Assembly: GCA_017517665.1 (NCBI GenBank)
Contig: JAFWYP010000024.1
Span: 1-64,000, forward strand
Direction of reading: 5' to 3'
Length of the DNA: 64,000 nt
From: Clostridia bacterium
GTDB lineage: Bacteria > Bacillota > Clostridia > Oscillospirales > Acutalibacteraceae
In this document: one piece after another, positions 3,707 through 16,839 of the stretch
Layout: every line of letters begins with the position of its first letter
Position numbering within the stretch: the first letter of the stretch is position 1
Notes under the pieces: model-generated
The model's database searches: none
What the model was told of the DNA's origin: nothing
Seen by the model: the letters and a program-made list of their open reading frames with translations, nothing else
Program-made: the position numbers and the translations under genes

Positions 3707-6214
3707 TTATTTGCATATGTCATTGACGGTAACGGAATAAATATGCGGTGCATAAGATGCTTGTCCATTGAATTTTACAGAACCGTCATTAGTGAAAATA
3801 ATTTCATTTTCTCCTTCTGTCAACTCAATATTTATTGTTGCGGTTTTTACGGTATCCCAGCTGTAAGTGTTCCTGCACCATAGTGTTTTTGATTCATCAC
3901 CGTGTTTTACTGTTATGTATCTTTCAATAAGGTCAACATTGTAGCTGTGGACTCCGCCTTCGTCATTGTTTGAATATGAAACTGTCATTCTGTAATTTCC
4001 CGATTCCGGAACATTCACTTTAAATGCTGCTTGACCTGATTCGCATGAAATACCGTTGATATATCCGTCAGACAAGAACGCGGAATCGGAAAGCGTCATT
4101 TCGTTTGCGGCAATTTTCAAGGAAAAGCCTGTTTGTGTTGTTTTATTTATAATGCAATCGGTTTCTTTATCTGTTTTGACGTCTATATAGTTTAAACCTT
4201 TTCTCAGATAAACAATTGAACAGCCATCGGTGTGTGCAGATGCACCGTCAATTTCAAAATCACCTTTAACAGAAATCATTTCATAAAAACCGTCAAATGG
4301 TGCAATTGCGAGGAATGATTTGTTGTTATTGCTTGTTCTGTCTTCGTCATAAAGAACAGTTATTCGGTTGGTTTCGTTGTGTTTTTCAACAAGCATACTG
4401 TCAACAACAAATGTTCCGTTTTTGTGAGCGAGAGTAATTGTATGATTTCCTTTTTCAAGGTAACGGACAAGTGTCATTTTGTCGGTGTATTCGCTTTTGA
4501 TTGTGTTGGGGAAGGAGAGTGTTTCGCAAATTCCGTCGAGAGTCATTAATGCTTGAGAATCAGTTCTGTCATCAGGCGTATGACCGTCGTTTGAATTGCC
4601 GTAAATAAGCTTCAAATCATAATATCCGTTTTCCGTAATTTCAAAAGAAACAGTAACGGAGTCACCGTCATTTTCAAGACCGCCGACCATTCCGTTTTGT
4701 TGACCCGTTGTAGCATAGGCGCTGTCGTATGTGTATGAATTTCCTGAAAGCACACCTTCTTCAAATTCATATCTGACCGGCAGAGAATTATTGTAATAAT
4801 CTTCCATGCCTTCGTTTGCTTCGGTTATAATAATATGATAAACAGCAGTAGGATCGGGATTATTAATGTTAATTCTCAATTTGCCGAAAAACACATTATC
4901 GGTATATTCACAAACAGTAACGGGAGAGTTGACAATTCCGGAAAGCCCTTCATAATATACGCTTTCAATTTTTACATTAACTCTTTTATTAAGATTTGTT
5001 TTGTTAAGATTTTTTAGAGTTATACCGCTTGTATAGTCACATCCTCCGCACAGAATATCAATCTTATTTTTATCATCCGTCATAGATGCAAAACCGTTAA
5101 AGTCTTTATAATGAAAACGGTCATAACCGTATTTTATTGCATTTGCAAAATCGGCATGAAGAACATCTATAATTTTTGATTTGAGGAGAGCTCCTTCCAT
5201 GTCGGCATACCAACGGAATAACCACCAATTTGAATTGGGACTGTTATTATCTGCGGCTGTATCGCAAAGATTGTTGGCAAGTCTCCAATAAGCGGCATTC
5301 GCGTATGCACCCGATTTTTCAATGCAGGTTACATATTTCAGCATATCTGCCGGTGCACCGCATTCATACATTGTTCCGTATTCTGTAATTATTATCGGTA
5401 ATTCTTCGATGCCGAGTTTATTTTCAATATCTCGGTAATCGTCGATATGGTCCTGCCAGAAAAGAGACGATCTTTCACCGAGTTCATGGTAAATCATTAT
5501 ATCGGGCATACAGTTGTTTTCTTGGCAATATTTGAGAAAGTGTTCTATTTCATAGCTTTCATAATCGCAGTAACCGGGACCTCCGATGACTGCTTCTGGG
5601 TATAGTGAATGTATAAGTTTATATGTTTCTTTCCATGCTTCGTAAAAACGGAATTTTGCCGCATCGTCAAACATCATCCATGTTCCGTCATCGGACGGAG
5701 TGCCGAACCATACCGCATTATCCGCTTCATTATAAGGACAGATAACAAGACGGTCTGAGTATTCTTTTTCGCGAAGTTTTATTATGCTTTCTGTAACAAG
5801 AGGATGAAATCTGTTTTTAACGAATTCTTTGCAGTCATAAGTACCTGCTTTTCTCAGTTCTTCAATTTCTTGCCAACAATAATACCATGTGTCAAAGCAA
5901 TCCTGAAGATAAACGGTTATATAATCGCAGTTGTCAAGCATTTTTGCCGCTTCATCAACATCCCCGATCGGATGCTGCAATCCGTCAATAACTTTTTGAG
6001 AAACGCTTGAGATATCAATACTTTCAACCATTGCGGCATCAGGCACACCGTTCTGCGCGATTCCGTAAAGGAATCCCGAAGCCCTGCTTGAAACTTCTCC
6101 CATGCTTACGGCGGCGTCAATCTCAAGCGTAGGTCTGAATAAAAAAGGAATACCCTCTGCAGTAAGGTTAAGAACGGTGATAAAACTAAGGATTAAACTT
6201 ATAATTTCTTTCAT
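3707..6214 (-). CDS. Exported glycoside-hydrolase-like protein: clan-A TIM barrel plus CBM35/CBM6-like modules
   Basis: This 835-residue protein starts with a hydrophobic export signal (about residues 1-22). Residues 40-390 look like a clan GH-A TIM barrel: N162-E163 in YNEADNAVW would be the acid/base and E278 in IITEYGT the nucleophile. From about 470 on there are two beta-sandwich modules of CBM35/CBM6 type (YEFEEG...GENDG-like pattern, then a second one to the end). The likely role is cutting a polysaccharide or glycan outside the cell; GH39-like folds are the closest I can suggest. It follows the alpha/beta hydrolase gene by 14 bases and shares its promoter. Substrate and family number are uncertain. 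Confidence 0.7.
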   Translation of the reverse strand: MKEIISLILSFITVLNLTAEGIPFLFRPTLEIDAAVSMGEVSSRASGFLYGIAQNGVPDAAMVESIDISSVSQKVIDGLQHPIGDVDEAAKMLDNCDYITVYLQDCFDTWYYCWQEIEELRKAGTYDCKEFVKNRFHPLVTESIIKLREKEYSDRLVICPYNEADNAVWFGTPSDDGTWMMFDDAAKFRFYEAWKETYKLIHSLYPEAVIGGPGYCDYESYEIEHFLKYCQENNCMPDIMIYHELGERSSLFWQDHIDDYRDIENKLGIEELPIIITEYGTMYECGAPADMLKYVTCIEKSGAYANAAYWRLANNLCDTAADNNSPNSNWWLFRWYADMEGALLKSKIIDVLHADFANAIKYGYDRFHYKDFNGFASMTDDKNKIDILCGGCDYTSGITLKNLNKTNLNKRVNVKIESVYYEGLSGIVNSPVTVCEYTDNVFFGKLRININNPDPTAVYHIIITEANEGMEDYYNNSLPVRYEFEEGVLSGNSYTYDSAYATTGQQNGMVGGLENDGDSVTVSFEITENGYYDLKLIYGNSNDGHTPDDRTDSQALMTLDGICETLSFPNTIKSEYTDKMTLVRYLEKGNHTITLAHKNGTFVVDSMLVEKHNETNRITVLYDEDRTSNNNKSFLAIAPFDGFYEMISVKGDFEIDGASAHTDGCSIVYLRKGLNYIDVKTDKETDCIINKTTQTGFSLKIAANEMTLSDSAFLSDGYINGISCESGQAAFKVNVPESGNYRMTVSYSNNDEGGVHSYNVDLIERYITVKHGDESKTLWCRNTYSWDTVKTATINIELTEGENEIIFTNDGSVKFNGQASYAPHIYSVTVNDICK

Positions 6215-6228
6215 GATTTCCTCGTCAA

Positions 6229-7179
6229 TTATTTGATAAATTTTTTTGCGAATTCATTGATTTTTTCTTCATAAGATGCGCTGTTGACAGGATAGCTTTC
6301 AGCATGTGCCGCGCCTTCAACGATGAGAATATCTTTATAAGAAGAACAGTTGTTATAAAGATCATATGCCATCTTTGTAGGTACAAAATCATCATTGCTT
6401 CCGTGGATGAACAACATGGGAACTTTTGCTGTTTTTACAGCCTCAAGGGGATTGGCATCCTTGAAATCGTAACCTGAAATTAATTTGTTGAATTTGCTTG
6501 CAGCAACAATAACAGGGGTTGCAAGCTTCATATTACCTGCGTTATGCATAAACTCATCATATGCCGAAGTGTAGCCGCAATCGGCAACCGTAAATTTAAC
6601 ATTTGACGGCAGTCTGTCGTTTCCGCTCATCATTGTAACTGTTGCACAGCCCATAGAAACGCCGTGAAGAATAATCTGAATGTCTTTCCCGAATTCATTA
6701 CGCAGAAAATCAAGCCATCTGAAACAATCGGTATATTCATGATAACCGAATCCGATATAAGTGCCGTCACTTTCACCGGCTGCCTGATGGTCAACAATAA
6801 ATACATTATATCCTTTTTCGTGATAGAATTTAGCCATGTTCTGGAATTCGAGTCTTCCGTTGCCTCTGTAGCCGTGACTGCAGAAAACATAAATGTTGCT
6901 TTCCTTTTCAGCGGGAAGAAGATATCCTTTGAGCTTATAGCCTTTTTCGTTTATTATTTCAAATTCTTCAAGAACCTGGTTATAAAACCATGCGATTTTC
7001 GCTTCGTTTACAGAGTTATCCTCAGGCAGTCCCGACGGACCGACAAAAAATGTGCCAAGCTTTTGCGAAAGAGTTGCTTTTCGGTTCATGATCTCCTGAA
7101 AAACAATAAATCCTGCCGCACCGACAATTCCTGCGCCTATACCCGCGGTTTTAAGTATTATTTTTGTACCTTTTTTCAT
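6229..7179 (-). CDS. Membrane-anchored alpha/beta hydrolase
   Basis: The 316-residue protein has an N-terminal transmembrane anchor (residues about 8-28, Gly/Ala/Ile-rich) and an alpha/beta hydrolase domain facing outward. The nucleophile elbow is HGVSMGCA, the acidic residue sits in IHGSNDDFVP, and the histidine in AAHAES. This arrangement resembles the YfhR/BEM46-type serine hydrolases of unknown substrate. An ideal AAGGAGG ribosome binding site precedes the ATG at 7179. It is the first gene of a two-gene operon with the exported glycoside-hydrolase-like protein. Confidence 0.85.
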   Translation of the reverse strand: MKKGTKIILKTAGIGAGIVGAAGFIVFQEIMNRKATLSQKLGTFFVGPSGLPEDNSVNEAKIAWFYNQVLEEFEIINEKGYKLKGYLLPAEKESNIYVFCSHGYRGNGRLEFQNMAKFYHEKGYNVFIVDHQAAGESDGTYIGFGYHEYTDCFRWLDFLRNEFGKDIQIILHGVSMGCATVTMMSGNDRLPSNVKFTVADCGYTSAYDEFMHNAGNMKLATPVIVAASKFNKLISGYDFKDANPLEAVKTAKVPMLFIHGSNDDFVPTKMAYDLYNNCSSYKDILIVEGAAHAESYPVNSASYEEKINEFAKKFIK

Positions 7180-7201
7180 TAGAAAGCCTCCTTCTATTTA
7201 C

Positions 7202-7230
7202 ATTTTATCAAAAGTTTTTATTATTTTCAA
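7202..7230 (-). promoter_or_regulatory. Sigma-A-type promoter of the alpha/beta hydrolase operon
   Basis: On the minus strand, TTGAAA (7230-7225), 17 bases, TAAAAT (7207-7202). It sits between the terminator of the upstream protease gene and the hydrolase start. Confidence 0.65.
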
Positions 7231-7235
7231 TATTA

Positions 7236-7270
7236 TAAAGTAAAAAGCCGCAGAATAATCTGCAGCTTAA
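7236..7270 (-). terminator. Intrinsic terminator of the papain-like protease gene
   Basis: On the minus strand, AAGCTGCAGA (7268-7259), loop TTAT, TCTGCGGCTT (7254-7245) form a 10-base-pair stem with one G-U pair, followed by TTTACTTT. Confidence 0.8.
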
Positions 7271-7287
7271 TTTAGCACATTTTTTGC

Positions 7288-9069
7288 TTAGGGAGAAAAT
7301 ATTTTAGTTATTAAATTATAAATAATTTCAAAAAAATCCTGAAATGTGACAAATCTTCCAGGTCTGTCTGTTCTTATAATTGCGTTTCCGCATTCAGAGC
7401 AGATTTTTTTGCTGACTGCATTTCCGTTGCAATCGTTTTCAAAATCGCTCCATTCACCGTAATTGTGTTCTCCTAAGGCATAAAATGATTCGCTGTAAAC
7501 ATTCCCGCAGTATTCGCAAAAGATTCTTTCCGAACCGGCAGTCTGACAGGTTGATTCTGTTTTTTCTGTAATGTATGAGTGAGAATTTTCAGTGAATGCC
7601 TGAATATAAAGATTTCCCCATCCTCTCTGAGTGTTATCAATCCATGTTGTAGCGTTTCTTCCTATATTTACAAAGCTTTCGCCTTCTTTGGCGGAATAGA
7701 CAACTCCGGACTGATTGTATTCAAAAGGAATATAGCTGACGCCGCTCGGACTCACGCATTCAACAATAACAGAGAAAATTGATCCAGGAGAAAGCTGTAT
7801 TTCTTTGTCAAGCTCAATTGTGTGATAACCTTCTCTTGGAATAAAGGTTTCCATAGTCAACGCAAGTGTGCCTTGGTTCGGATAATAGTAGTTCTTTTTA
7901 ATATCTTTGTAAATAAGAATTGTTACATCCGATGCTTCTGTAAGTGTGTAAATTGAAATTGATGTAAGCTTTTCGCATCCTTTTGCCGTGAAAACATTTG
8001 CGGTCTGAACAGGGGAGGAGTTGTTGAAGTAAACACGGTATCCTGTTCCGTTATATGTATAGTTATTGCTGTTTTCATTGACCTGTTTTGCTGTGAATCC
8101 TGCAAAATATGTTATGGTCATATCATAATATGAAATATAAAAATATCCGTTATCGCCCCAGTATTCGCTCCAGCTGTTTTTGCAAATCCACGCGCCGTTA
8201 TTTTCAGGTTTAATAAGTGAATTGAAGTTGTCAGCGGAATAATTATCATCCCAACCGACGATTGTTATCTGATGGTTGATTGAACCGTTATTGGAATTCA
8301 TATAATAAGCTGCCGTTGAAGAGTTATAATAAGGTTCATCAAAGTAAAATGCTGCGGTTACGCTTCCGTGGTCGTAAATCCATTGCTTTGTATCATCCAT
8401 ATCAAGCATGACTTCCGAAGAGTTAATAACAATTCCGCTTCCCGTATCATATCTTTTTTCTTCGGGATAACCTGTCATTTGCGTGATATCGTACGGATTA
8501 AAGGGGTAATCTTTTTCTTCGGCAACACCGTTCCATCTTGCAAGAGGTGCAGAAACGGTAAGCCAGTTACCGCCCATACTGTAAGGTGATTCGTAGTTTA
8601 TGCCGTCGCCGTATGTGGGATCGTTTGTATTTTCCGTAAGACTTCTGCCTGAAAACCATGAAAGATGTGCTTCGGAATAATCGGCATCATTGATTGTATC
8701 ATATCCGTTTATTATGCTGTCGGTTTCAAGCGCGGATAATGTTGAAAAAGCCCAGCAATTACCTGATTCGCCTTGATATTTAACATCGGTAATGTAATCG
8801 TGTTCTCTGGAGTCATATTTATCAGGCATAAAAGAAAACAGTCTCATTTTCTTTTGCGAAGGGATAAAATTTAATCTGTTATGTTCACAAACGGGATTTC
8901 CGTTTTTGTCAATGAATTTGTAATCGGTAAAACCGTAGTCACCGATGCTTTCAGTTTCCATTGTGAAAAAACCGAAACCTTCATTTGTCTCTTTTGCACT
9001 TGCAGAAATACTTGCTGAAGTTGCAAAAACAACCGAGATACAGATTAAAACAGATACTATTTTTTTCAT
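7288..9069 (-). CDS. Secreted papain-family (C1A) cysteine protease with lectin-like C-terminal region
   Basis: The 593-residue protein has a clear signal peptide (MKKIVSVLICISVVFATSAS, cleavage near SASA-KE). The C1A catalytic site is complete: Gln99 and Cys105 in QGESGNCWAFS, His266 in INHQITIVGW, and Asn298 in CKNSWSEYWG. A beta-rich region after about 320 resembles the lectin-like domain often attached to Firmicute C1A peptidases. Further on are CxxCG pairs in a clostridial secreted-protein repeat (ATC..G...CEYCG type) and a short hydrophobic C-terminal helix. I moved the start from 9168 to ATG 9069 because of the signal peptide and an AAAGGAGAT ribosome binding site. It lies next to the serpin operon but has its own promoter. 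Confidence 0.88.
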   Translation of the reverse strand: MKKIVSVLICISVVFATSASISASAKETNEGFGFFTMETESIGDYGFTDYKFIDKNGNPVCEHNRLNFIPSQKKMRLFSFMPDKYDSREHDYITDVKYQGESGNCWAFSTLSALETDSIINGYDTINDADYSEAHLSWFSGRSLTENTNDPTYGDGINYESPYSMGGNWLTVSAPLARWNGVAEEKDYPFNPYDITQMTGYPEEKRYDTGSGIVINSSEVMLDMDDTKQWIYDHGSVTAAFYFDEPYYNSSTAAYYMNSNNGSINHQITIVGWDDNYSADNFNSLIKPENNGAWICKNSWSEYWGDNGYFYISYYDMTITYFAGFTAKQVNENSNNYTYNGTGYRVYFNNSSPVQTANVFTAKGCEKLTSISIYTLTEASDVTILIYKDIKKNYYYPNQGTLALTMETFIPREGYHTIELDKEIQLSPGSIFSVIVECVSPSGVSYIPFEYNQSGVVYSAKEGESFVNIGRNATTWIDNTQRGWGNLYIQAFTENSHSYITEKTESTCQTAGSERIFCEYCGNVYSESFYALGEHNYGEWSDFENDCNGNAVSKKICSECGNAIIRTDRPGRFVTFQDFFEIIYNLITKIFSP

Positions 9070-9179
9070 GTTTTTATCTCCTTTGTTCAGAAAAAAGTGT
9101 TTTTCATCTATAAGACGTATCAAAACGGAGTTTGGTTTGCTTTTTTTAAATGTTTTGAAACAATACACATTTTAAATAT

Positions 9180-9207
9180 ATTATAGCACTTTAAACATTT
9201 TATTCAA
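9180..9207 (-). promoter_or_regulatory. Extended -10 promoter of the protease gene
   Basis: On the minus strand, TTGAAT (9207-9202), 16 bases, then TATAAT (9185-9180), preceded by TG one base upstream (TGCTATAAT), which is an extended -10. It gives the protease gene a leader of about 100 bases. Confidence 0.7.
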
Positions 9208-9221
9208 GAGATAATTACAAA

Positions 9222-9256
9222 TAAAGAATAACGCCGTATTTAACGATACGGCGTTT
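9222..9256 (-). terminator. Intrinsic terminator of the sigma-serpin operon
   Basis: AACGCCGTAT (9230-9239) and ATACGGCGTT (9246-9255) form a perfect 10-base-pair stem with a six-base loop. On the minus strand it is followed by ATTCTTTATTT. Confidence 0.8.
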
Positions 9257-9263
9257 AAATAAT

Positions 9264-10943
9264 TTATTTACTGAAATCTCTGACTGTTCCCATGAAAAGA
9301 GGAGTACCTGTTTTTGTGTTGTATATTACATAAATAAACGGTCTGTCAAAATAAAGCATTTTAATATTCTCGGGAGGCATAGCAGAACCCGCTTTCATTT
9401 CAACATATGTTGCAGCACCTGCTTTTGTTCCGTTTTCGGTAAAAGAAATACTCGTGTTATGATAAACTTCACTAATATAAAGCGGATTGCTTTTTATTTC
9501 ATTTATACCTGAAAAATCAGCTTTGTTAGGGTCAAAAGCAAGTGGCATACCGATTTTTTTGAGTGCGTCGGCAAATTTAAAACTGCATTTAAATTCAAAT
9601 TTCGGATATTTTGCAAGAAGAAGAAAAACTCCGTCTTTATCTTTTGAAACAGTTAATCTTTTGGTAAGAGAATATGCAAGCTGATTGCCAGTGAAACTGT
9701 TCAGAGCTTCTGAAACGCTTACTCCCTCATTCGGAAGCAGGGCGGCAAATGAATAGCCGTTTGTATAATCTCTGATTATTCCTTCTGTTTTGCCGAGCTT
9801 AAAATAATTGTATTCATTTGCATCCATTGAATCTGAAAGCATGGTGACTTTCTGAATTTTTCCGCTTTCAGATGTGAAATTTTGGTTTTGCATAACCTGA
9901 TGAGCTTCAAATTTGTTTTTCCATTCCGCATCAAAAAGAACTGTGTTTATAAGATACATTACGGCGTCGGAGGTCAGTTCATTAAGCCCGTTTTTAATCA
10001 AGCCATCCGTGTTATCGCTTACCCAGCGATTGATTTTATTGAGCGTTGAACCGTCAAATTTTTCTTTGAAAATCTCGGCACCGTAATGCTTCTTATTTAC
10101 GTCAATGAAACCTTGTTTTATTTTTAATGCAGGAGTATCCTTCATCCATATTGAATTTGCAGTTTTAACACCTTCACCGTCAATTGCCGATTTGGAATAA
10201 ATACTGTTAAGCTGTTCGATTTCGCCGCCGAGGATATTTTCGATTTGTTTGAGTGTTTCACCGTTTGCACCGTTGGCTGTCATTGATAAAGCAGTAATCA
10301 AGGAAACAGGGGAGATGATTGCATTTGCTTCCTGTTTGATTGCTTCCTTAAGCATATTAATTGAAAAATCTGCTGCGGCAACCGTTGTCTTTGTTAAAGT
10401 GAAACTTAAGTCTTCGGTTGTGTCATATAAACAGCGAAGAGTAACAGGCTCGGTTTTTGATTCGGGTTCAGTGAAATTTACAATCGGCTGACAAACATTA
10501 CTGTGGGGAACATAGTTAAAAAGAATTCTGTTAAACACTTCTTTATCCTCATCAGAAAACTTAAATTCCGAATAAACACCTGATGAAACATTTTCAAATG
10601 AACCGCAGTCATAATGATAAGCGTATTCAACACCGTCTATTCTGATATTGTAATCAAACAGGCAGTCAGGACCTGCTTCAACAATCTGAGGTTCATATTT
10701 TTGAATGATTTTCAGCGCTTTTTCAGCATCTTCATCGGAAAACGGACTGTACAGTTCATCACCCTCAAAGTGAACGGGTTTTGCTTCAATAACAATTTTC
10801 TTTTCTGTTGTATTTTCGGACGATAAAGTTTCTGCTATCTTTTCGGTAATATTGTTTATTATTTCGTTTTTGTTATTTTTATTACAGGCGAAAAGAGAAA
10901 AACTTAAAATAAATGCAAGTAATATAACAACTGTTTTTTTCAT
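9264..10943 (-). CDS. Serpin-family protease inhibitor, lipoprotein
   Basis: This 559-residue protein has a lipoprotein signal with lipobox Cys20 (LFAC), so it should sit on the outer face of the membrane. Residues 50-185 are an unrecognised N-terminal domain. Residues about 190-559 are a full-length serpin: NAIISPVSLITALSMTANGA near the start and PLFMGTVRDFSK at the end. The reactive-centre hinge ENGTKAGAAT (503-512) matches the inhibitory consensus, and the loop continues YVEMKAGSAMPPE. Alignment by eye puts the scissile P1 near Gly519-Ser520, a small residue as expected for elastase- or subtilisin-like targets. It is the last gene of the sigma-factor operon and ends at a terminator. Bacterial serpins are known from gut bacteria and from Clostridium thermocellum. 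Confidence 0.9.
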   Translation of the reverse strand: MKKTVVILLAFILSFSLFACNKNNKNEIINNITEKIAETLSSENTTEKKIVIEAKPVHFEGDELYSPFSDEDAEKALKIIQKYEPQIVEAGPDCLFDYNIRIDGVEYAYHYDCGSFENVSSGVYSEFKFSDEDKEVFNRILFNYVPHSNVCQPIVNFTEPESKTEPVTLRCLYDTTEDLSFTLTKTTVAAADFSINMLKEAIKQEANAIISPVSLITALSMTANGANGETLKQIENILGGEIEQLNSIYSKSAIDGEGVKTANSIWMKDTPALKIKQGFIDVNKKHYGAEIFKEKFDGSTLNKINRWVSDNTDGLIKNGLNELTSDAVMYLINTVLFDAEWKNKFEAHQVMQNQNFTSESGKIQKVTMLSDSMDANEYNYFKLGKTEGIIRDYTNGYSFAALLPNEGVSVSEALNSFTGNQLAYSLTKRLTVSKDKDGVFLLLAKYPKFEFKCSFKFADALKKIGMPLAFDPNKADFSGINEIKSNPLYISEVYHNTSISFTENGTKAGAATYVEMKAGSAMPPENIKMLYFDRPFIYVIYNTKTGTPLFMGTVRDFSK

Positions 10944-10970
10944 TTTTATCCCCCTTTTTCCTTGTTTATT

Positions 10971-11867
10971 TTAATATGTTCCGTCAAGATTAAACGGAAT
11001 GGAAAAATTATGTTTGTTTGCGGCGAAGGTTTCTGTTGTTTTATTGGTATAAACAAAAATTGCATTATAAGAAACCATGGTCAGACCGACTTTGGGTTGA
11101 GATACAGAATAATAATCAACAGTTAGATCTATTTCATAAGGATTAATTTCGGAAACTCTGATTTCGTGAGATGAGTCCGGAACGGAGGTTATTATTATTC
11201 CGAGATTATTGTTTTCAAAATAATCTTCGTTTATTGTATCGGGGATTGTTACGAAATCGAAGCTTTTTTCATTTATAAAATTTTGCCAACTTTCAAAATC
11301 TTTAATAAAATATGTTGCATCTGCAATATCGGAATTACTTTCGATTTCTACAATATCATAAAAAGGTGTAAAATCGTTTCTCGATATAAACGGCAGATAA
11401 ATTTTCTCTTTTTCGAAAACATTTACTTTTGTTACGGGTTTCTTTGCAATTATACAAATTGACTCATGACAAATAGCATCAGTTCCGCCAAGCATATCAT
11501 TTACCAGAACATATTCAAGATTTATTTCATTGTTAATCTGATTGACCGAGGTTATATATGTTTTCTGATTTGAGCCTGATAATTCGACATCCTCAATAAT
11601 TATTGAATTCATAACAAAAAAATCGGGAGTGAATTCTGTTAAAAAATCTTTCATTTTATCAGAATTATTGATTTTTGAGTAAACAACTAAATCAGAGTAG
11701 CTTGAAATTATATGTGTGCCCCAGGAATAATAAGACCCTGAACCGTTATTGATAATTGTTGTATCGGGATTTTCGATATATATCGGCTCGATAATATTGA
11801 AATTGAATAAACTTATAATAATGGCTGTGATAAAAGCTGTTATTTTTTCGATAAATATACTCAGCAT
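10971..11867 (-). CDS. Exported protein with an internal duplication, possibly PrcB-like domains
   Basis: The 298-residue protein has a hydrophobic N-terminus (residues 4-24) that should export or anchor it. Two segments resemble each other: about 70-150 (DFFVMNSIIIEDVELSGSNQ...ITSVN...EINLEYV) and about 195-280 (DYFENNNLGIIITSVPDSSHE...VSEIN...EIDLTVDY). The pattern of a hydrophobic strand, an S-rich turn, then INxxEIxL recalls the PrcB-like domain found in Firmicutes; the original PrcB is a subunit of the Treponema dentilisin protease complex. That assignment is tentative. It lies 13 bases after the anti-sigma gene and 27 before the serpin, so the three are co-transcribed. Confidence 0.5.
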   Translation of the reverse strand: MLSIFIEKITAFITAIIISLFNFNIIEPIYIENPDTTIINNGSGSYYSWGTHIISSYSDLVVYSKINNSDKMKDFLTEFTPDFFVMNSIIIEDVELSGSNQKTYITSVNQINNEINLEYVLVNDMLGGTDAICHESICIIAKKPVTKVNVFEKEKIYLPFISRNDFTPFYDIVEIESNSDIADATYFIKDFESWQNFINEKSFDFVTIPDTINEDYFENNNLGIIITSVPDSSHEIRVSEINPYEIDLTVDYYSVSQPKVGLTMVSYNAIFVYTNKTTETFAANKHNFSIPFNLDGTY

Positions 11868-11880
11868 AAATTATCCCTCC

Positions 11881-12810
11881 TTACCGAGGTTTATATTCGG
11901 GTAAAGCTGCTGTTGTTTCGGGAAAGTGAGCAGGGGAGTAATAGCTGTCTTTTCCTGAAATAAGATTCTTTTCTTTGCATTCAATAACTCGGAGTGTAAC
12001 AGCGTCAAGTTCAATTATAAATGATTTATATTGTGTGTAGAAATATACTGTATAAGTTGTTTTGCCGCTTGCCGTTCGTGTGATTGTTACCTGCGTTTTT
12101 TCATCAATAAGCTTTGACGCATCATCTTTGGAAATAACATTTTTGGCCTCAGCAATTGCTTCTTCGGATGATTTAGGCTTTGACGCTGAAGTTCTGGCGA
12201 TTGTTATTTCCTCATAAACAGAATCGGGTGACTCAAGACACGGCTCAGAAACTTCCGTGACATAATCTTTCGTTGTTTCTGCGAGAGACATAGCGTTCTC
12301 TCCGCCCAATGAAGGATTTTTAAACCAATCGGGATCGAATGTTTCTCCTGCCCATCCGAAATTCAAGCGTCTTGTTGTTTCTTCGTCGGGTATTTCAGCT
12401 GCAATTTCTGTCCGAAGCTTATTGTCCGATGTTGCCGCTTCGTTTTTCTTTGTTGCCTTTATCTCCGAATCGTTCATGTTTCTGTTTCCCGCTTCATCGG
12501 TTATAAGCTCGTGGTTAAAACCTTGAATTACCGTATATTGTTCGCCGGAAGCGAAAAACTCTTCTTTTGTTGTAGTAATTATATCTGTTGTGTTTGTGTT
12601 TACAAAAATATGCTTATCCGAATTGCTGTTTTCACTTTCATTTACGGGTATTTCTTTTTCAAAATATTTGGGAACAAATGCAAATACAGCAGCAAAGCAT
12701 ATTGCAAGACATAAAATGCTTGTTAAAACAGAAACCGTCTTTTTGCGTTCCCTGATTAATGCATCTCTTTTTGCATAGATGCTTTCAAGATATTCATCTC
12801 TGTTTTTCAT
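11881..12810 (-). CDS. Membrane-bound anti-sigma-factor-like protein with PepSY-like C-terminus
   Basis: The 309-residue protein has a short cytoplasmic part (residues 1-24, DEYLESIYAKRDALIRERKK), one transmembrane helix (25-48) and a long extracellular region. A Ser/Thr/Glu-rich stretch (about 55-205) separates the membrane from a PepSY-like domain (about 210-290, with EEAIAEAKNVI and TYTVYFYTQYKSFIIELDAVTL). Its ATG overlaps the sigma-factor stop by one base (TAATG), the usual coupling between an ECF sigma factor and its anti-sigma partner. It should hold the sigma factor inactive until an outside signal arrives. The function is inferred from position and topology, since the short N-terminus has no classical zinc anti-sigma motif. 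Confidence 0.65.
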   Translation of the reverse strand: MKNRDEYLESIYAKRDALIRERKKTVSVLTSILCLAICFAAVFAFVPKYFEKEIPVNESENSNSDKHIFVNTNTTDIITTTKEEFFASGEQYTVIQGFNHELITDEAGNRNMNDSEIKATKKNEAATSDNKLRTEIAAEIPDEETTRRLNFGWAGETFDPDWFKNPSLGGENAMSLAETTKDYVTEVSEPCLESPDSVYEEITIARTSASKPKSSEEAIAEAKNVISKDDASKLIDEKTQVTITRTASGKTTYTVYFYTQYKSFIIELDAVTLRVIECKEKNLISGKDSYYSPAHFPETTAALPEYKPR

Positions 12811-13352
12811 TAAAGCTTCACCTCGCTCTCAAGTTCTTTTCGCAGAGCTTGTTTTGCTCTGTATAAAAGATTTTCAATTTGTTTTTTATTTTTCTTCATA
12901 ACCATTGCAGCTTCTTCGATGCTCATATATTCAAAATAAACAAGATGAATAACAGTTTTATAATCGCTGTTCAGTCTTTCAAGAGCAACATGAAGCTCTC
13001 TTTCTTGTTCTTTTTTGATGAATTCATCTTCAAGATTTTTTCTGTCCGCCTCGTTTTCAATATACTCATAAGCATATTCGGGTTTACGGGCACAGCGGCG
13101 CACGTAACTTATCGCTTTGTTTCGCCCGATAGTAAACAAATATGTTTTCAGAGATGTTTTAAAATTATATCTTCTTTTATGTAAAAGAACATCAACAAAA
13201 ACATCTTCCGATAATTCCTGAGCGACCGAAATATTATTGACATAGCGGTTAATAAAGAATATTAAATTTTCACTGTACAAATCGAGAATTTCACGAAATG
13301 CACTTTCGTCTCCGTCAAGAAAACGGCGGTAGCTACTTTCACCGTTGTCCAT
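12810..13352 (-). CDS. ECF-type RNA polymerase sigma factor
   Basis: The 180-residue protein has sigma region 2 at about 22-88 (AQELSEDVFVDVLLHKRRYN, then TYLFTIGRNKAISYVRR) and region 4 at about 122-173 (LNSDYKTVIHLVYFEYMSIEEAA with a helix-turn-helix), with no region 3, as in extracytoplasmic-function sigma factors. It directs RNA polymerase to a small regulon, probably including its own operon. The start has a GGGAGGTG ribosome binding site. It is the first gene of the operon with the anti-sigma-like protein, the duplicated exported protein and the serpin. I could not see a clear promoter in the 110 bases upstream. Confidence 0.93.
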   Translation of the reverse strand: MDNGESSYRRFLDGDESAFREILDLYSENLIFFINRYVNNISVAQELSEDVFVDVLLHKRRYNFKTSLKTYLFTIGRNKAISYVRRCARKPEYAYEYIENEADRKNLEDEFIKKEQERELHVALERLNSDYKTVIHLVYFEYMSIEEAAMVMKKNKKQIENLLYRAKQALRKELESEVKL

Positions 13353-13417
13353 CGGAACACCTCCCGAATAAGTGTTTCAACCATTATTCGCCAAAACAGG
13401 CTAAAACACTCACCATT

Positions 13418-13457
13418 TTTTAAAAAATTTTCGGCAGGACACAATTATCCTGCCGAA
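13418..13457 (-). terminator. Intrinsic terminator of nadE
   Basis: On the minus strand, TTCGGCAGGA (13457-13448), an eight-base loop, TCCTGCCGAA (13439-13430) and a run of AATTTTTT. It separates nadE from the sigma-factor operon. Confidence 0.85.
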
Positions 13458-13464
13458 TACTGAA

Positions 13465-15402
13465 TTATTTAAGGGCTTCAAGCTGTTTTAACCAGATATT
13501 TGCACATGCATCGCTGGGCATTTTCAAATCTGTTGAGGATGAAATGCCGACTGAACCGATTTTTACGCCGTCAGGCATACAGCTTCTTTTGAATTGCTGT
13601 GAGAAAAATCTTCTGTAAAATGTCTTGAGCCATTTGAGAATGATTTCTGAATCGAAATCGTCTTTAAATGCTTTTTTTGCAAGGAAATAAACTTTTTCGG
13701 GTTCAAATCCGTAACGAAGAATATTATAAAGAAAGAAATCGTGAAGTGCATACGGACCGACGATATCTTCTGTTTGCTGAGCAATTTCGCCTTTGGAATC
13801 GGGCGGGAGAAGCTCGGGACTGATAGGTGTGTTGACAATATCCCAGAGATAAGCTTTGCTGTTTACGAAGTTTCCGTTTTTAATAAGGCTGTCTATAATC
13901 CAGCGTATAAGCGACTTGGGTATTCCGCTGTTTACTCCGTACATACTCATATGGTCGCCGTTATAAGTGCACCAGCCGAGCGCCATTTCGCTCATATCGC
14001 CTGTTCCGACAACAAGACCGCCGACCTTGCCTGCATAGTCCATGAGAACCTGCGTTCTTTCCCTTGCCTGTGAATTTTCATAGGTGAGGTCATAGTTGTT
14101 TTCGCTTTGACCGATATCTTTGAAATGCTGTAAACAAGCATCTTTGATGTTGATTTCAATATTGGTAATACCCAGAGATTTCATAAGAGAAACGGCATTG
14201 TTATAGGTTCTGTCTGTTGTGCCGAAACAAGGCATTGTAATACCTATAACATCGCTGACGGGTCTGCCGAGAGATTTGACAGCTTCAACGGCAACGAGGA
14301 GGGCAAGCGTTGAATCAAGACCGCCTGATATTCCGATTACGGGTTTGCAGCCTGTTTTTTCAAGTCTTTTTTTCAGACCAGCAACCTGAATTTCAAAAAT
14401 TGAAAGACATCTGTCCGTTCTGTCTGCTTCCGTTGAAGGAATGAAAGGAAGTTTGCTTATTGATGCAAATTCACCGTCGGAATCGGACTCTTTATCCGAA
14501 ACAAAATGTCTGTGCGGATCTGTTTTATTGTATGCTTTGCAATCCGAAAAGGTTGTGTTTATCATTCTGTCATGGCGGATTTTCCCGAGATCAATATCGC
14601 TGATTATTATATAATCGGATGAAATATTTTCTTTTTGTTCAGCAACAATCTTACCGTTTTCTGCAATTATGCTGTGACCCGAGAAAACGAGTCCCGAGGT
14701 TGACTCTTTGCATCCTGCAGAGCAAAAAGCATAACTGCATATTCCGTTCATGGATTGATTTTTTACAAGGTCGGTTCTCTTGGTTCTCTTACCGACTGTT
14801 TCGTTGCTTGCAGCAAGGTTAATAATTATTTCAGCTCCCGAAAGACATAAATCGGTACTGACAGGGGAAGGTGCAAACAAGTCTTCACAGATTTCAACTC
14901 CGACTTTTGTTCCTTTTAAAAGAAAGAGACCGCTTGTAACGGAAATATAATATTCATCTGAAAGACCGAATGATAATGATGAAATATATTCGGTGTTGAG
15001 ATTGTTCGATGAGTTAAAATATCTTTTTTCGCTGAATTCTCCGTGGTCAGGTATATATTTTTTCGGAACAATGCCGCAGATTACACCATCATAAATAATT
15101 ACGGCACAGTTATAAAGTAAATCATCAATTATAAAAGGCAGACCGACTGCAACAGCCGTTTCTGTTCCTTTGGTAAATTCGACAAGTGATTTTATACCAT
15201 CTACAGCTTCTTTGATAAGTGTGTTCTGGAAAAACAAATCTCCGCAGGTGTAGCCCGTAACCGAAAGCTCGGGGAAAACGAGTAAGTCAACTTTATTGTT
15301 GATTGCTTCGGTAATTTGTTTTTTTATTTCACAGATATTGTACTTAACATCTGCAACTTCAACATCGGGCACAGCACAGGCGATTCTGAAGTAATCATAC
15401 AT
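13465..15402 (-). CDS. nadE: Glutamine-dependent NAD+ synthetase
   Basis: This 645-residue cytoplasmic enzyme amidates nicotinic acid adenine dinucleotide to NAD+, taking ammonia from glutamine. The N-terminal nitrilase-type glutaminase has its Glu45-Lys114-Cys172 triad (FPELSVTGY, VPKKYIPDHGE, VGVEICEDLF). The C-terminal synthetase has the PP-loop SGGLDS at about 359-364 and GTGDMSEMALGWCTYNGDH. The start at ATG 15402 sits at good distance from an AAGAAGG ribosome binding site; the ATG two codons earlier at 15408 is too close to it. Fusion of both domains is normal for this family. Confidence 0.96.
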   Translation of the reverse strand: MYDYFRIACAVPDVEVADVKYNICEIKKQITEAINNKVDLLVFPELSVTGYTCGDLFFQNTLIKEAVDGIKSLVEFTKGTETAVAVGLPFIIDDLLYNCAVIIYDGVICGIVPKKYIPDHGEFSEKRYFNSSNNLNTEYISSLSFGLSDEYYISVTSGLFLLKGTKVGVEICEDLFAPSPVSTDLCLSGAEIIINLAASNETVGKRTKRTDLVKNQSMNGICSYAFCSAGCKESTSGLVFSGHSIIAENGKIVAEQKENISSDYIIISDIDLGKIRHDRMINTTFSDCKAYNKTDPHRHFVSDKESDSDGEFASISKLPFIPSTEADRTDRCLSIFEIQVAGLKKRLEKTGCKPVIGISGGLDSTLALLVAVEAVKSLGRPVSDVIGITMPCFGTTDRTYNNAVSLMKSLGITNIEINIKDACLQHFKDIGQSENNYDLTYENSQARERTQVLMDYAGKVGGLVVGTGDMSEMALGWCTYNGDHMSMYGVNSGIPKSLIRWIIDSLIKNGNFVNSKAYLWDIVNTPISPELLPPDSKGEIAQQTEDIVGPYALHDFFLYNILRYGFEPEKVYFLAKKAFKDDFDSEIILKWLKTFYRRFFSQQFKRSCMPDGVKIGSVGISSSTDLKMPSDACANIWLKQLEALK

Positions 15403-15507: not shown

Positions 15508-16839
15508 TTAAAATCCGAAAAGCTCCTTCAATTCCTGAACTGTTTCTTTATTATATTGCTTTACGGCTTCAATTTTGCTGTTGATTCTTTCGCCGATTGT
15601 TACATATTTGAAGGCTTCTTTGACTGCATAATATGAGGGCTTGGGTCTGCCTACGCCGTCAACAAGTCCCCAGCCTGTTTCAACGGGGCAGTCAGACTGA
15701 CCGCATACATAACAGCTGTCGCTGTCACCCCAGCAATAAACAAAAGCACCGATAACATAATCAACTTCCATGATTTTAGGGATAATGTATCTGTAAAAAT
15801 CAGCCTGACCTTCAGGAGTATGTTCAAAACCGTAAAGTCCGAAACCTTCAGCGAGTTCGCAATAAAGATGATTTGAATATTCACCGTTGAAAATAAGGTC
15901 GGCACGCTCTTCAGGAGTTCTGTCGCTGTAATCTTCGATGATTTCTTCCTTCATATCTTCCGGAAGATTGTTGATGAAATTGTCAATATCTTTTCTTGCG
16001 TCGGCTTCGCTGTTGTAGCCGTATTTCTGAAGAATAGATGTTTTATCTGCATTTGATTTGGGTTCGCCGTAACCGATATAACCGAATTCACACATAATTA
16101 CTGGTTTGTTGGTTACCCGTCTTACAAAATTAAGAATTGTTATATATTGGTTAGCATTTTTAAGTACAGGCTCAAAACAGCCGAGATACATATCAAGACC
16201 GACATAATCGCAGTATTTATGATATTTCATCATTTTGAACGGAAGCTGAAGAATTGAAAGACCGCCGAGGTTATAGCCGATGATTTCATCGCCTCTGATG
16301 GGATACATTGCTTCAAGCTGCATTCCGATGAATTCAGCTGCTTCATCAAGAGTGAGGGGAAGAGTGAAACGGTCAATGCCCATTTCGTTTGTCACCTGAA
16401 ATGCACCTACGATGCCTTTGAGGTCCTTCATATAAAATCTTGCGATATCCTGAATAGCTTCTCTGTTTTCGGGATTACGGGGGTCAAGACCGTATTCGAT
16501 ATAGTCATCGGGATAAGGGGTGATACCGAAAATTCTTACGCCGTTCTTAACAAATTCAGCGCTTTCTTTTTTCCAGTTTTTATAGCTCTGTGAAATCTTT
16601 CCGTCTTTGTCATAGGGGAAAGGAATGTCATCTCTGAACCACTCAATTCCAGCTTCTTCAAGCAATTTATACTGAGGGTCTGCGTGACAGACACCCTTCA
16701 TAAATCCTCCGACCTTTTCCTGTGCAATATCAACGTTTTTATCAAGAGGTGCGAACGGAGTTGCAACAATCATTGATGCAAGGGGAGTGATGATTGCAAG
16801 CAACAATCCGACGATTTTCATAAGAATTGTCATAAACAT
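15508..16839 (-). CDS. Exported glycoside-hydrolase-like TIM-barrel protein
   Basis: The 443-residue protein has a hydrophobic N-terminal signal or anchor (about residues 5-27). The rest looks like a clan GH-A barrel: FQVTNEMG (Glu about 152) as acid/base and VIMCEFGY (Glu about 252) as nucleophile. Near the C-terminus a Cys-rich loop (CYVCGQSDCPVETGWGLVDG) sits before a charged helical tail. It probably acts on a glycan outside the cell, but the family and substrate are not recognisable to me. The first ATG (16839) has an AAAGGAGAG ribosome binding site. It shares a general design with the larger exported barrel protein at 3707-6214 but not its carbohydrate-binding modules. Confidence 0.65.
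   Translation of the reverse strand: MFMTILMKIVGLLLAIITPLASMIVATPFAPLDKNVDIAQEKVGGFMKGVCHADPQYKLLEEAGIEWFRDDIPFPYDKDGKISQSYKNWKKESAEFVKNGVRIFGITPYPDDYIEYGLDPRNPENREAIQDIARFYMKDLKGIVGAFQVTNEMGIDRFTLPLTLDEAAEFIGMQLEAMYPIRGDEIIGYNLGGLSILQLPFKMMKYHKYCDYVGLDMYLGCFEPVLKNANQYITILNFVRRVTNKPVIMCEFGYIGYGEPKSNADKTSILQKYGYNSEADARKDIDNFINNLPEDMKEEIIEDYSDRTPEERADLIFNGEYSNHLYCELAEGFGLYGFEHTPEGQADFYRYIIPKIMEVDYVIGAFVYCWGDSDSCYVCGQSDCPVETGWGLVDGVGRPKPSYYAVKEAFKYVTIGERINSKIEAVKQYNKETVQELKELFGF

Follow-up and report, generated by a model that had tools for sequence, protein, structure and literature searches.

We found that four open reading frames on the minus strand of a 64,000-nucleotide stretch of a Clostridia bacterium genome (Acutalibacteraceae; contig JAFWYP010000024.1, positions 1 to 64,000; hereafter the window) encode, from 13352 to 9264, an extracytoplasmic function (ECF) sigma factor (P0001), a single-pass membrane protein (P0002), an exported protein (P0003) and a serpin lipoprotein (P0004). 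The source is a draft genome of 2.77 Mb with a completeness of 88.67%. From the sigma gene to the serpin gene the intergenic gaps are −1, 13 and 27 bases, as an initial annotation of the window had reported. Judging from sequence and gene order, we consider this run to be, on balance, probably an autoregulated operon of sigma factor, anti-sigma factor and effector for surface protease defence, with exogenous serine proteases as the most likely signal. At the level of sequence comparison, the gene order is conserved, a motif upstream of the sigma gene recurs at a second site in the genome, and the serpin is replaced in some relatives and fused to the membrane partner in others.

Within the genus, for which 45 genomes including the source genome were sampled, serpins are present in 13 genomes, in 14 copies altogether, and 12 serpin loci outside the window were fetched. 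All 12 have a homolog of the sigma gene upstream on the same strand (identity 48.6-80%); with the window included, the order sigma-serpin is found in 13/13 serpin-bearing genomes. At these 12 loci tblastn matched P0002 in 11, through its N-terminus, which supports the membrane partner of anti-sigma type put forward in the initial annotation, and found relatives of P0003 in six. When the sample is searched from the side of the sigma factor, 15 of the 45 genomes carry an ortholog with at least 68% identity and 12 of these 15 also have a serpin. In G030 the contig stops after the anti-sigma gene. Neither G004 nor G025 contains a serpin match anywhere in the genome, and the last gene of their operon encodes a lipoprotein weakly resembling the BsuPI proteinase inhibitor (PF12690; 19.5 and 14.1 bits, respectively, cut-off 22.9), while in G003 the serpin is followed by another such weakly BsuPI-like lipoprotein (17.9 bits). 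The N-terminal part of the G003 lipoprotein matches that of P0004 (32% over 148 residues; E 1.2e-14); the corresponding match is weak for the G025 copy (L078; E 0.0013) and none is over threshold for the G004 copy (L077).

We observed the same linkage among named relatives. A search of the GTDB contig collection gave 109 stretches that encode a relative of the sigma factor, of which the best 80 were analysed. Of these 80, 26 have at least 50% identity, and 20 of the 26 carry a serpin gene on the same strand no more than 3 kb downstream; so do 7 of the 54 below that identity. For each locus the count relied on the ECF with the best score, which was not the matched one in at least L101. Since 14 of the 26 (L077-L090) and L105 seem to be genus genomes again, the named relatives are only partly a second sample; among the non-repeated loci with at least 50% identity, a serpin is present in 9/12. 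The six relatives without a serpin comprise two with a BsuPI-like lipoprotein (L077, L078), two at contig ends (L088, L103), one with another lipoprotein (L098) and one with another exported protein (L102). Among the low-identity relatives, L147 has the serpin fused to the membrane partner of the sigma factor. The sigma-serpin linkage, which the initial annotation had staked on its conservation in related genomes, is thus conserved in 12/12 genus loci, in 20/26 named relatives and in 31/80 loci of the wider family.

The family survey covered 300 genomes, 99 of them with serpins, two of which are from the genus itself. Outside the genus 80 regions from 75 genomes, holding 96 serpins, were taken in roughly score order, leaving aside the lower-scoring remainder and one match with internal stop codons. 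In 31 of these 80 loci, from 23 genera, an ECF gene lies no more than 2.6 kb upstream on the same strand, against a chance expectation of about 1/80, an estimate of ours that ignores relatedness and assumes some 10 sigma-type genes on each strand of a 2.77 Mb genome (21 matches). Three of the loci (L233, L255, L257) had their sigma genes recognised by eye and then included in building a broader ECF hidden Markov model, and their detection by that model is therefore by construction; Pfam confirms the ECF of L233 and L257, and the sigma factor of L255 is a 68-residue fragment at a contig end. The order ECF-serpin is present in four families (f1, f2, f5 and f19 by the codes of the search tool). 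Upon partitioning the 31 loci, 13 show a split form, with a gene or a gap between the ECF gene and the serpin gene, and 18 (18/80, 13 genera) show a fused form, in which the ECF gene and the serpin gene share 4 to 53 bases. In the fused protein a short N-terminal segment leads into a membrane helix, recognised by hydropathy, and the serpin follows as outer domain; in three of the 18 (L251, L261, L264) our script flagged a lipobox-like sequence from a cysteine in the helix. Pfam detected the serpin alone in the six fused proteins scanned, so the anti-sigma role of the N-terminal segment is proposed from position and architecture. As a control, 13/607 non-serpin genes of these loci directly follow an ECF gene, and by eye the N-termini of all 13 resemble membrane partners of the same kind.

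The ECFs of the fused forms belong to several lineages, which are 18-35% identical to one another and to P0001. On a tree of 118 ECF rows, built by a quick method with only Shimodaira-Hasegawa-like approximate likelihood ratio (SH-aLRT) supports and with serpin-less rows chosen unevenly, according to their similarity to ECFs linked with serpins, 25 ECFs form a starred clade (97), made up of 21 ECFs of split serpins, the two BsuPI cases, and those of G015 and G027. The fused state requires 11 changes on this tree, at least four of them forced by starred branches. Two of the lineages, C and D, were followed through their best 30 loci each in 120 genomes, with a serpin-linked ECF as query; one locus per lineage lacks a downstream open reading frame, and the partner is a non-serpin protein in 27/29 loci of C and in 27/29 of D, figures that include two short or spurious partner picks in C and four in D (L322, L331, L340, L342, L360 and L372 in total), and some partners are truncated where the 1.5 kb flank ends. 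By eye, many partners share a similar N-terminal segment in front of differing outer domains, which points to a shared anti-sigma module whose outer domain can be exchanged, the serpin being one version. The outer parts of these partners (L320-L379) amount to a large set of possible sensors. As further observations on such proteins, in one lineage of L320-L379 the N-terminal segment reads by eye approximately ID..[ILV]..EA; the partners in L361, L362 and L363 contain a stretch, S.DVNPS.EL..N.FD.V, which we take to be reminiscent of RsgI proteins; L195:762-3908 encodes a protein whose N-terminus is of anti-sigma type and whose C-terminal part resembles a serpin, followed by an ECF gene and then a serpin lipoprotein; and L156:8503-11388 encodes an exported protein of 961 residues, the serpin domain of which starts at residue 595, located one gene past a pair of ECF and membrane partner.

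Next, we investigated the region upstream of the sigma gene. A putative sigma-specific, autoregulatory promoter, TGAGTGTTTT-N11-GCGAATAA, lies at 13384..13412 on the minus strand, 31 bases upstream of the sigma start codon, and the general motif, TGAGWGTTTT-N11-GCGAATAA, was derived from an alignment of 16 upstream regions. In the window the motif has a single match at no more than three mismatches, against 0.36 expected, and this match is the one upstream of the sigma gene; together with the terminator-like hairpin after the serpin gene, it is consistent with the single transcription unit that the initial annotation had proposed. Across the 45 genus genomes, at no more than one mismatch, there are 34 matches in 19 genomes, compared with one for the reversed pattern. 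At that stringency the motif precedes the sigma gene in 15/15 genomes with an ortholog of at least 68% identity, and it is also found upstream of the sigma gene in G015 and G027, whose sigma relatives are 54% identical; these two and G029 (about 320 bases upstream) are the sites outside the derivation of the motif. Only two of the other 28 genomes have a match: that of G017 is probably due to chance, and G019 has no sigma relative over the search threshold. Conservation of the two boxes around a varying N11 spacer is an argument for function. Motif-like sequences are also seen by eye upstream of the sigma genes of L091, L094 and L095. We infer that the motif is the promoter used by the sigma factor and that the serpin is an active inhibitor.

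Half of the matches (17 of 34) are located away from a sigma gene. The second perfect copy in the source genome, at L275:3454-3482 (contig C54), lies 106 bases upstream of a gene for an Amino_oxidase-family flavoprotein, the first of an operon (L275:3589-8794) that continues with two large hydrophobic proteins without a Pfam match. The same flavoprotein operon stands behind a motif match in seven further genomes (G004, G018, G019, G021, G025, G029 and G031), and in G015 and G027 it is found downstream of the sigma locus itself, on the same strand. The other genes that follow motif matches resemble genes for lipoproteins and membrane proteins.

These elements would fit together as follows. In the resting state the membrane protein P0002 would hold the sigma factor P0001. 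An outside signal, most likely an attack by exogenous serine proteases, would cause this hold to be lost, probably by regulated proteolysis. The freed sigma factor would then transcribe its own operon, yielding more sigma factor, more of its partner and more of the surface serpin lipoprotein, and is predicted to transcribe also the distant envelope operon of the flavoprotein and the two large hydrophobic proteins. Exogenous serine proteases appear the likeliest signal because of the analogy with RsiV and because serpins have been recruited repeatedly. Three S8 proteases are encoded elsewhere in the source genome, and thus an endogenous target of the serpin is also possible, though on present evidence not the neighbouring C1A protease described below.

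Several observations weigh against a dedicated protease-defence operon. The presence of the motif at sigma genes is partly by construction, because the motif was read from these upstream regions; in the source genome at no more than three mismatches it has 8 matches, only two of them perfect, compared with 7 for the reversed control; and it is specific to the clade, occurring in 1/15 split loci outside the genus and in 0/18 of the other group, with a background of 1/1600 windows. The BsuPI-like lipoproteins of G004, G003 and G025 do not reach the gathering score of PF12690, and for that of G025 Arrestin_C ranks above BsuPI (16.4 bits, likewise below cut-off). Many serpins are found without the linkage: 49 of the 80 family loci have no ECF gene in the interval, some of them at contig ends, and in a class survey with serpins in 165/391 genomes an ECF gene lies upstream in 0/30 of the best-scoring loci (about 1.5 kb flanks) and in 4/20 chosen loci, four of which were picked deliberately from the same order. 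The four linked class loci comprise three from the same order and one (L424) from another family of the class. Since 49/80, 30/30 and 16/20 loci are without an ECF gene, serpins do not depend on sigma control, and the linkage characterises some clostridial serpins but is absent from others. As for the source of the signal, 12 of the 14 nearest named relatives (L077-L090) have titles that name the hindgut of goat, sheep, deer, yak or buffalo as the sample; the record titles of four operon carriers (L091, L092, L093, L095) suggest non-gut sources, and we presume that GWF2_38_85, Sandtown, AS22 and AS08 denote such source types. Host proteases therefore cannot be the sole signal. Finally, a predicted regulon with envelope-type genes would also suit a sigma factor for general envelope stress.

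A refinement that overlaps with the protease-defence operon is that the serpin itself receives the signal: once its loop is cleaved, or a protease is trapped, the fate of the anti-sigma factor would change, directly in the fused forms and, in the split arrangement of the window, by way of contact between P0002 and the serpin lipoprotein. The 18/80 family loci in which membrane-helix serpins overlap the ECF gene point in this direction, as do lineages C and D, in which a similar N-terminal segment precedes other outer domains, and RsiV is a described anti-sigma factor that both senses and inhibits lysozyme (passages of PMC5014341). Set against this are the reactive loops of the fused serpins, 16/18 of which are off the strict hinge pattern (one of them, L265, through a mis-picked stretch), the three fused proteins flagged for a lipobox (L251, L261, L264), and the separate lipoprotein nature of the window serpin. 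We regard the receiver role as possible without calling it probable. More generally, with the serpin built into the membrane part of the switch in relatives, proteases may be sensed by the same kind of protein that blocks them. We also propose, tentatively and with our confidence somewhat below the halfway mark, that serpins are protease receptors of ECF sigma factors, fused to an anti-sigma factor or acting beside it, that their spring-loaded cleavage or trapping constitutes the sensing, with a single molecule both blocking the protease and signalling its presence, that this arrangement arose more than once, and that the window represents its separate-gene form.

Alternatively, P0001 would be a general envelope-stress sigma factor responding to wall or membrane damage by antibiotics, lysozyme or peptides, with the serpin as one output and not the sensor. 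The predicted second target, an envelope-type operon, and the lipoprotein-like and membrane-protein-like genes behind other motif matches agree with this, as does an outer part of P0002 without a Pfam family over cut-off. However, it leaves unexplained why serpins are fused to the membrane partner of the sigma factor in other ECF lineages, and we consider it unlikely, though it merits serious consideration.

Among the individual proteins, the sigma factor P0001 (180 residues; 12810..13352, minus strand) contains regions 2 and 4, with PF04542 at 6.3e-8 (32.8 bits, cut-off 24) and PF08281 at 5.3e-8 (32.8 bits, cut-off 25.7). It has the make-up of an ECF sigma factor, a short protein in which Sigma70_r2 and Sigma70_r4_2 alone are found by Pfam, both over cut-off. 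P0002 (309 residues; 11881..12810, minus strand) is a putative anti-sigma factor by its position, its 1-base overlap with the sigma gene and its hydropathy: a basic short N-terminus is followed by one membrane helix, with a 19-residue hydropathy peak starting at residue 28, and then by a long outer part. The Pfam scan of P0002 gave nothing over cut-off, the best being DUF6097 at 15.5 bits (cut-off 27.5). P0003 (298 residues; 10971..11867, minus strand) is exported and probably also membrane-anchored, and it consists of two homologous halves, whose profiles align in hhalign with a probability of 97.6% (E 3.1e-12) compared with at most 1.16% in 20 column-shuffled controls, bearing out its initial description as a duplicated protein. 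It has no Pfam match, and comparison with the PDB gave no convincing one (best E 0.019).

The serpin lipoprotein P0004 (559 residues; 9264..10943, minus strand) carries, in order, a lipoprotein-type signal by eye, an N-terminal domain and the serpin at its C-terminus (residues 190-556), and it belongs to the serpin sequence family (PF00079, 9.7e-76; 255.8 bits, cut-off 27). The solved structures closest to it by sequence are those of tengpin and related entries (2pef and 2vh4, E about 1e-68; also 2pee), compared with which P0004 has in addition the lipoprotein-type signal and a longer N-terminal region, the serpin beginning only at residue 190. Its hinge and reactive-centre loop, ENGTKAGAATYVEMKAGSAMPPENIKMLYF, was located by a match to the hinge pattern at residues 503-532 (9348..9437, minus strand). 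The strict inhibitory hinge is E-x-G-T/S-x followed by four residues from A, G, S, T and V, and the P0004 hinge, ENGTKAGAAT, satisfies it. Loops were scored in 106/110 serpins, four short matches being dropped. The strict hinge is present in 24/26 split-type serpins, that of the window included, with both exceptions from L246 (Val at P14), and in 2/18 fused serpins, 15 of which carry Ala, Val, Leu or Cys as the P14 residue (Val in the case of L265). Since 16/18 are off the strict hinge, with L265 among them owing to the pick of a wrong stretch, inhibition by the fused serpins is less certain. Only 32 of the remaining 62 serpins, which include a few extra ones from linked loci, are strict, and unusual hinges are therefore not exclusive to the fused kind. 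Counted from the hinge, and thus as a position and not as a measured site, P1 is Gly in P0004 and Glu in 14/24 scored split-type loops.

We compared the system with known ones. Passages of PMC5014341 describe that RsiV of the Bacillus subtilis SigV/RsiV pair binds and inhibits lysozyme and thereby signals, loss of the anti-sigma factor freeing the sigma factor. The likeness lies in an ECF sigma factor paired with a membrane anti-sigma factor, the outer domain of which both binds the attacking enzyme and inhibits it; the difference is that the inhibitor-type domain here is a serpin, which in the window is a separate lipoprotein. The Pfam scan, which included no direct comparison with RsiV, returned no RsiV-type outer domain in P0002. 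The SigI/RsgI systems of Clostridium thermocellum and Acetivibrio, which in the consulted portions of PMC12484212 and PMC3413522 serve polysaccharide sensing, resemble it as pairs of sigma and membrane anti-sigma factors with exchangeable outer sensor domains, whereas here the sigma factor is of ECF type and the fused forms carry a serpin as outer domain; P0002 has no Pfam match to an RsgI-type N-terminal domain.

Among gut clostridial serpins, the siropins of Eubacterium siraeum are reported to inhibit human neutrophil elastase and proteinase 3 (PMC5127057); a text search of that paper found neither "operon" nor "neighbor", its four instances of "sigma" refer to a supplier of reagents, and we saw no account of gene regulation. 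The serpins of C. thermocellum are extracellular and reportedly active against subtilisin-like proteases, and two are attached to the cellulosome (portions of PMC12484212 and PMC6718151); the same portions yielded no sigma linkage. One of its three serpins is already called a membrane protein in a bacterial serpin review (PMC6718151), and a serpin in the membrane is therefore no novelty in itself. The authors of a large serpin phylogeny report that they were unable to find systematic trends connecting where prokaryotic serpins fall in the tree with their localization and function (PMC8233489); text searches found neither "sigma factor" nor "operon" in it, and neither "sigma" nor "operon" in the review PMC6718151. 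In the open-access literature, at the level of titles and the starts of abstracts, we found no description of a serpin linked to a sigma/anti-sigma pair. The role and control of bacterial serpins seem largely open, and the present comparison connects a specific group of serpins with a specific class of regulator, supplying a candidate promoter motif and regulon. The fused genes of sigma partner and serpin named here are candidates for asking whether serpins sense proteases. If serpin cleavage does drive the switch, the serpin fold would have a signalling role in bacteria of which we have seen no earlier description.

The operon is flanked by two terminator-like hairpins on the minus strand, one at 13430..13457 (12 pairs, 6 GC), which forms the upstream boundary behind the gene for an NAD synthase (Pfam and NCBIfam), and one resembling an intrinsic terminator after the serpin gene at 9230..9255 (10 pairs, 5 GC); in the interval 6500-14500 there are 12 terminator-like sites compared with 6.1 ± 3.0 in shuffles. 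Past the second hairpin (9255-9230), which separates it from the serpin, lies the gene of a secreted papain-like C1A protease with a Lectin_like domain (P0005; 7288..9069, minus strand), with both domains over cut-off in Pfam (Peptidase_C1 9.6e-24, Lectin_like 2.9e-23). Cys105, His266 and Asn298, located by motif, are presumably its catalytic residues. The initial annotation had given this gene an extended −10 promoter of its own and had linked the protease to the serpin. The TG-extended −10 is indeed there (TTGAAT-16-TATAAT, 9207-9180), and as evidence it is weak because promoter-like sites in the region occur at chance level (28 compared with 24.2 ± 6.0). The link to the serpin found no support: relatives of P0005 are present in 0/12 of the other genus serpin loci (tblastn over 11-15 kb each, the remainder of the genomes being unsearched for P0005), and the window scan found no copy of the sigma-gene motif at the protease. 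From these two results P0005 is probably outside the sigma-serpin system, and with the intervening hairpin added we rejected it both as a target of the serpin and as a co-regulated gene. That the serpin guards the cell against this protease would draw on the adjacency of the genes in this one genome and on the fact that some serpins inhibit cysteine proteases; given the same three findings and the three S8 proteases elsewhere, we hold it to be very improbable. Chance linkage or hitch-hiking, to which the relatedness of the genomes and the many unlinked serpin loci outside the genus would lend some weight, is the least credible of all, as the order is still found at sigma identities of about 50% and in four families, and the fused forms cannot be placed on one branch of the tree (at least four forced changes).

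Two further exported proteins are encoded in the window. At 15508-16839 lies one that begins MFMTILMKIVGLLLAIITPLASMIV..., look-alikes of which are seen by eye near the operon in several genus genomes (L019, L020, L024, L025, L026, L057 and L058). At 3707-6214 lies a large one with carbohydrate-binding modules, of which CBM_35 is over cut-off and CBM_6 below.

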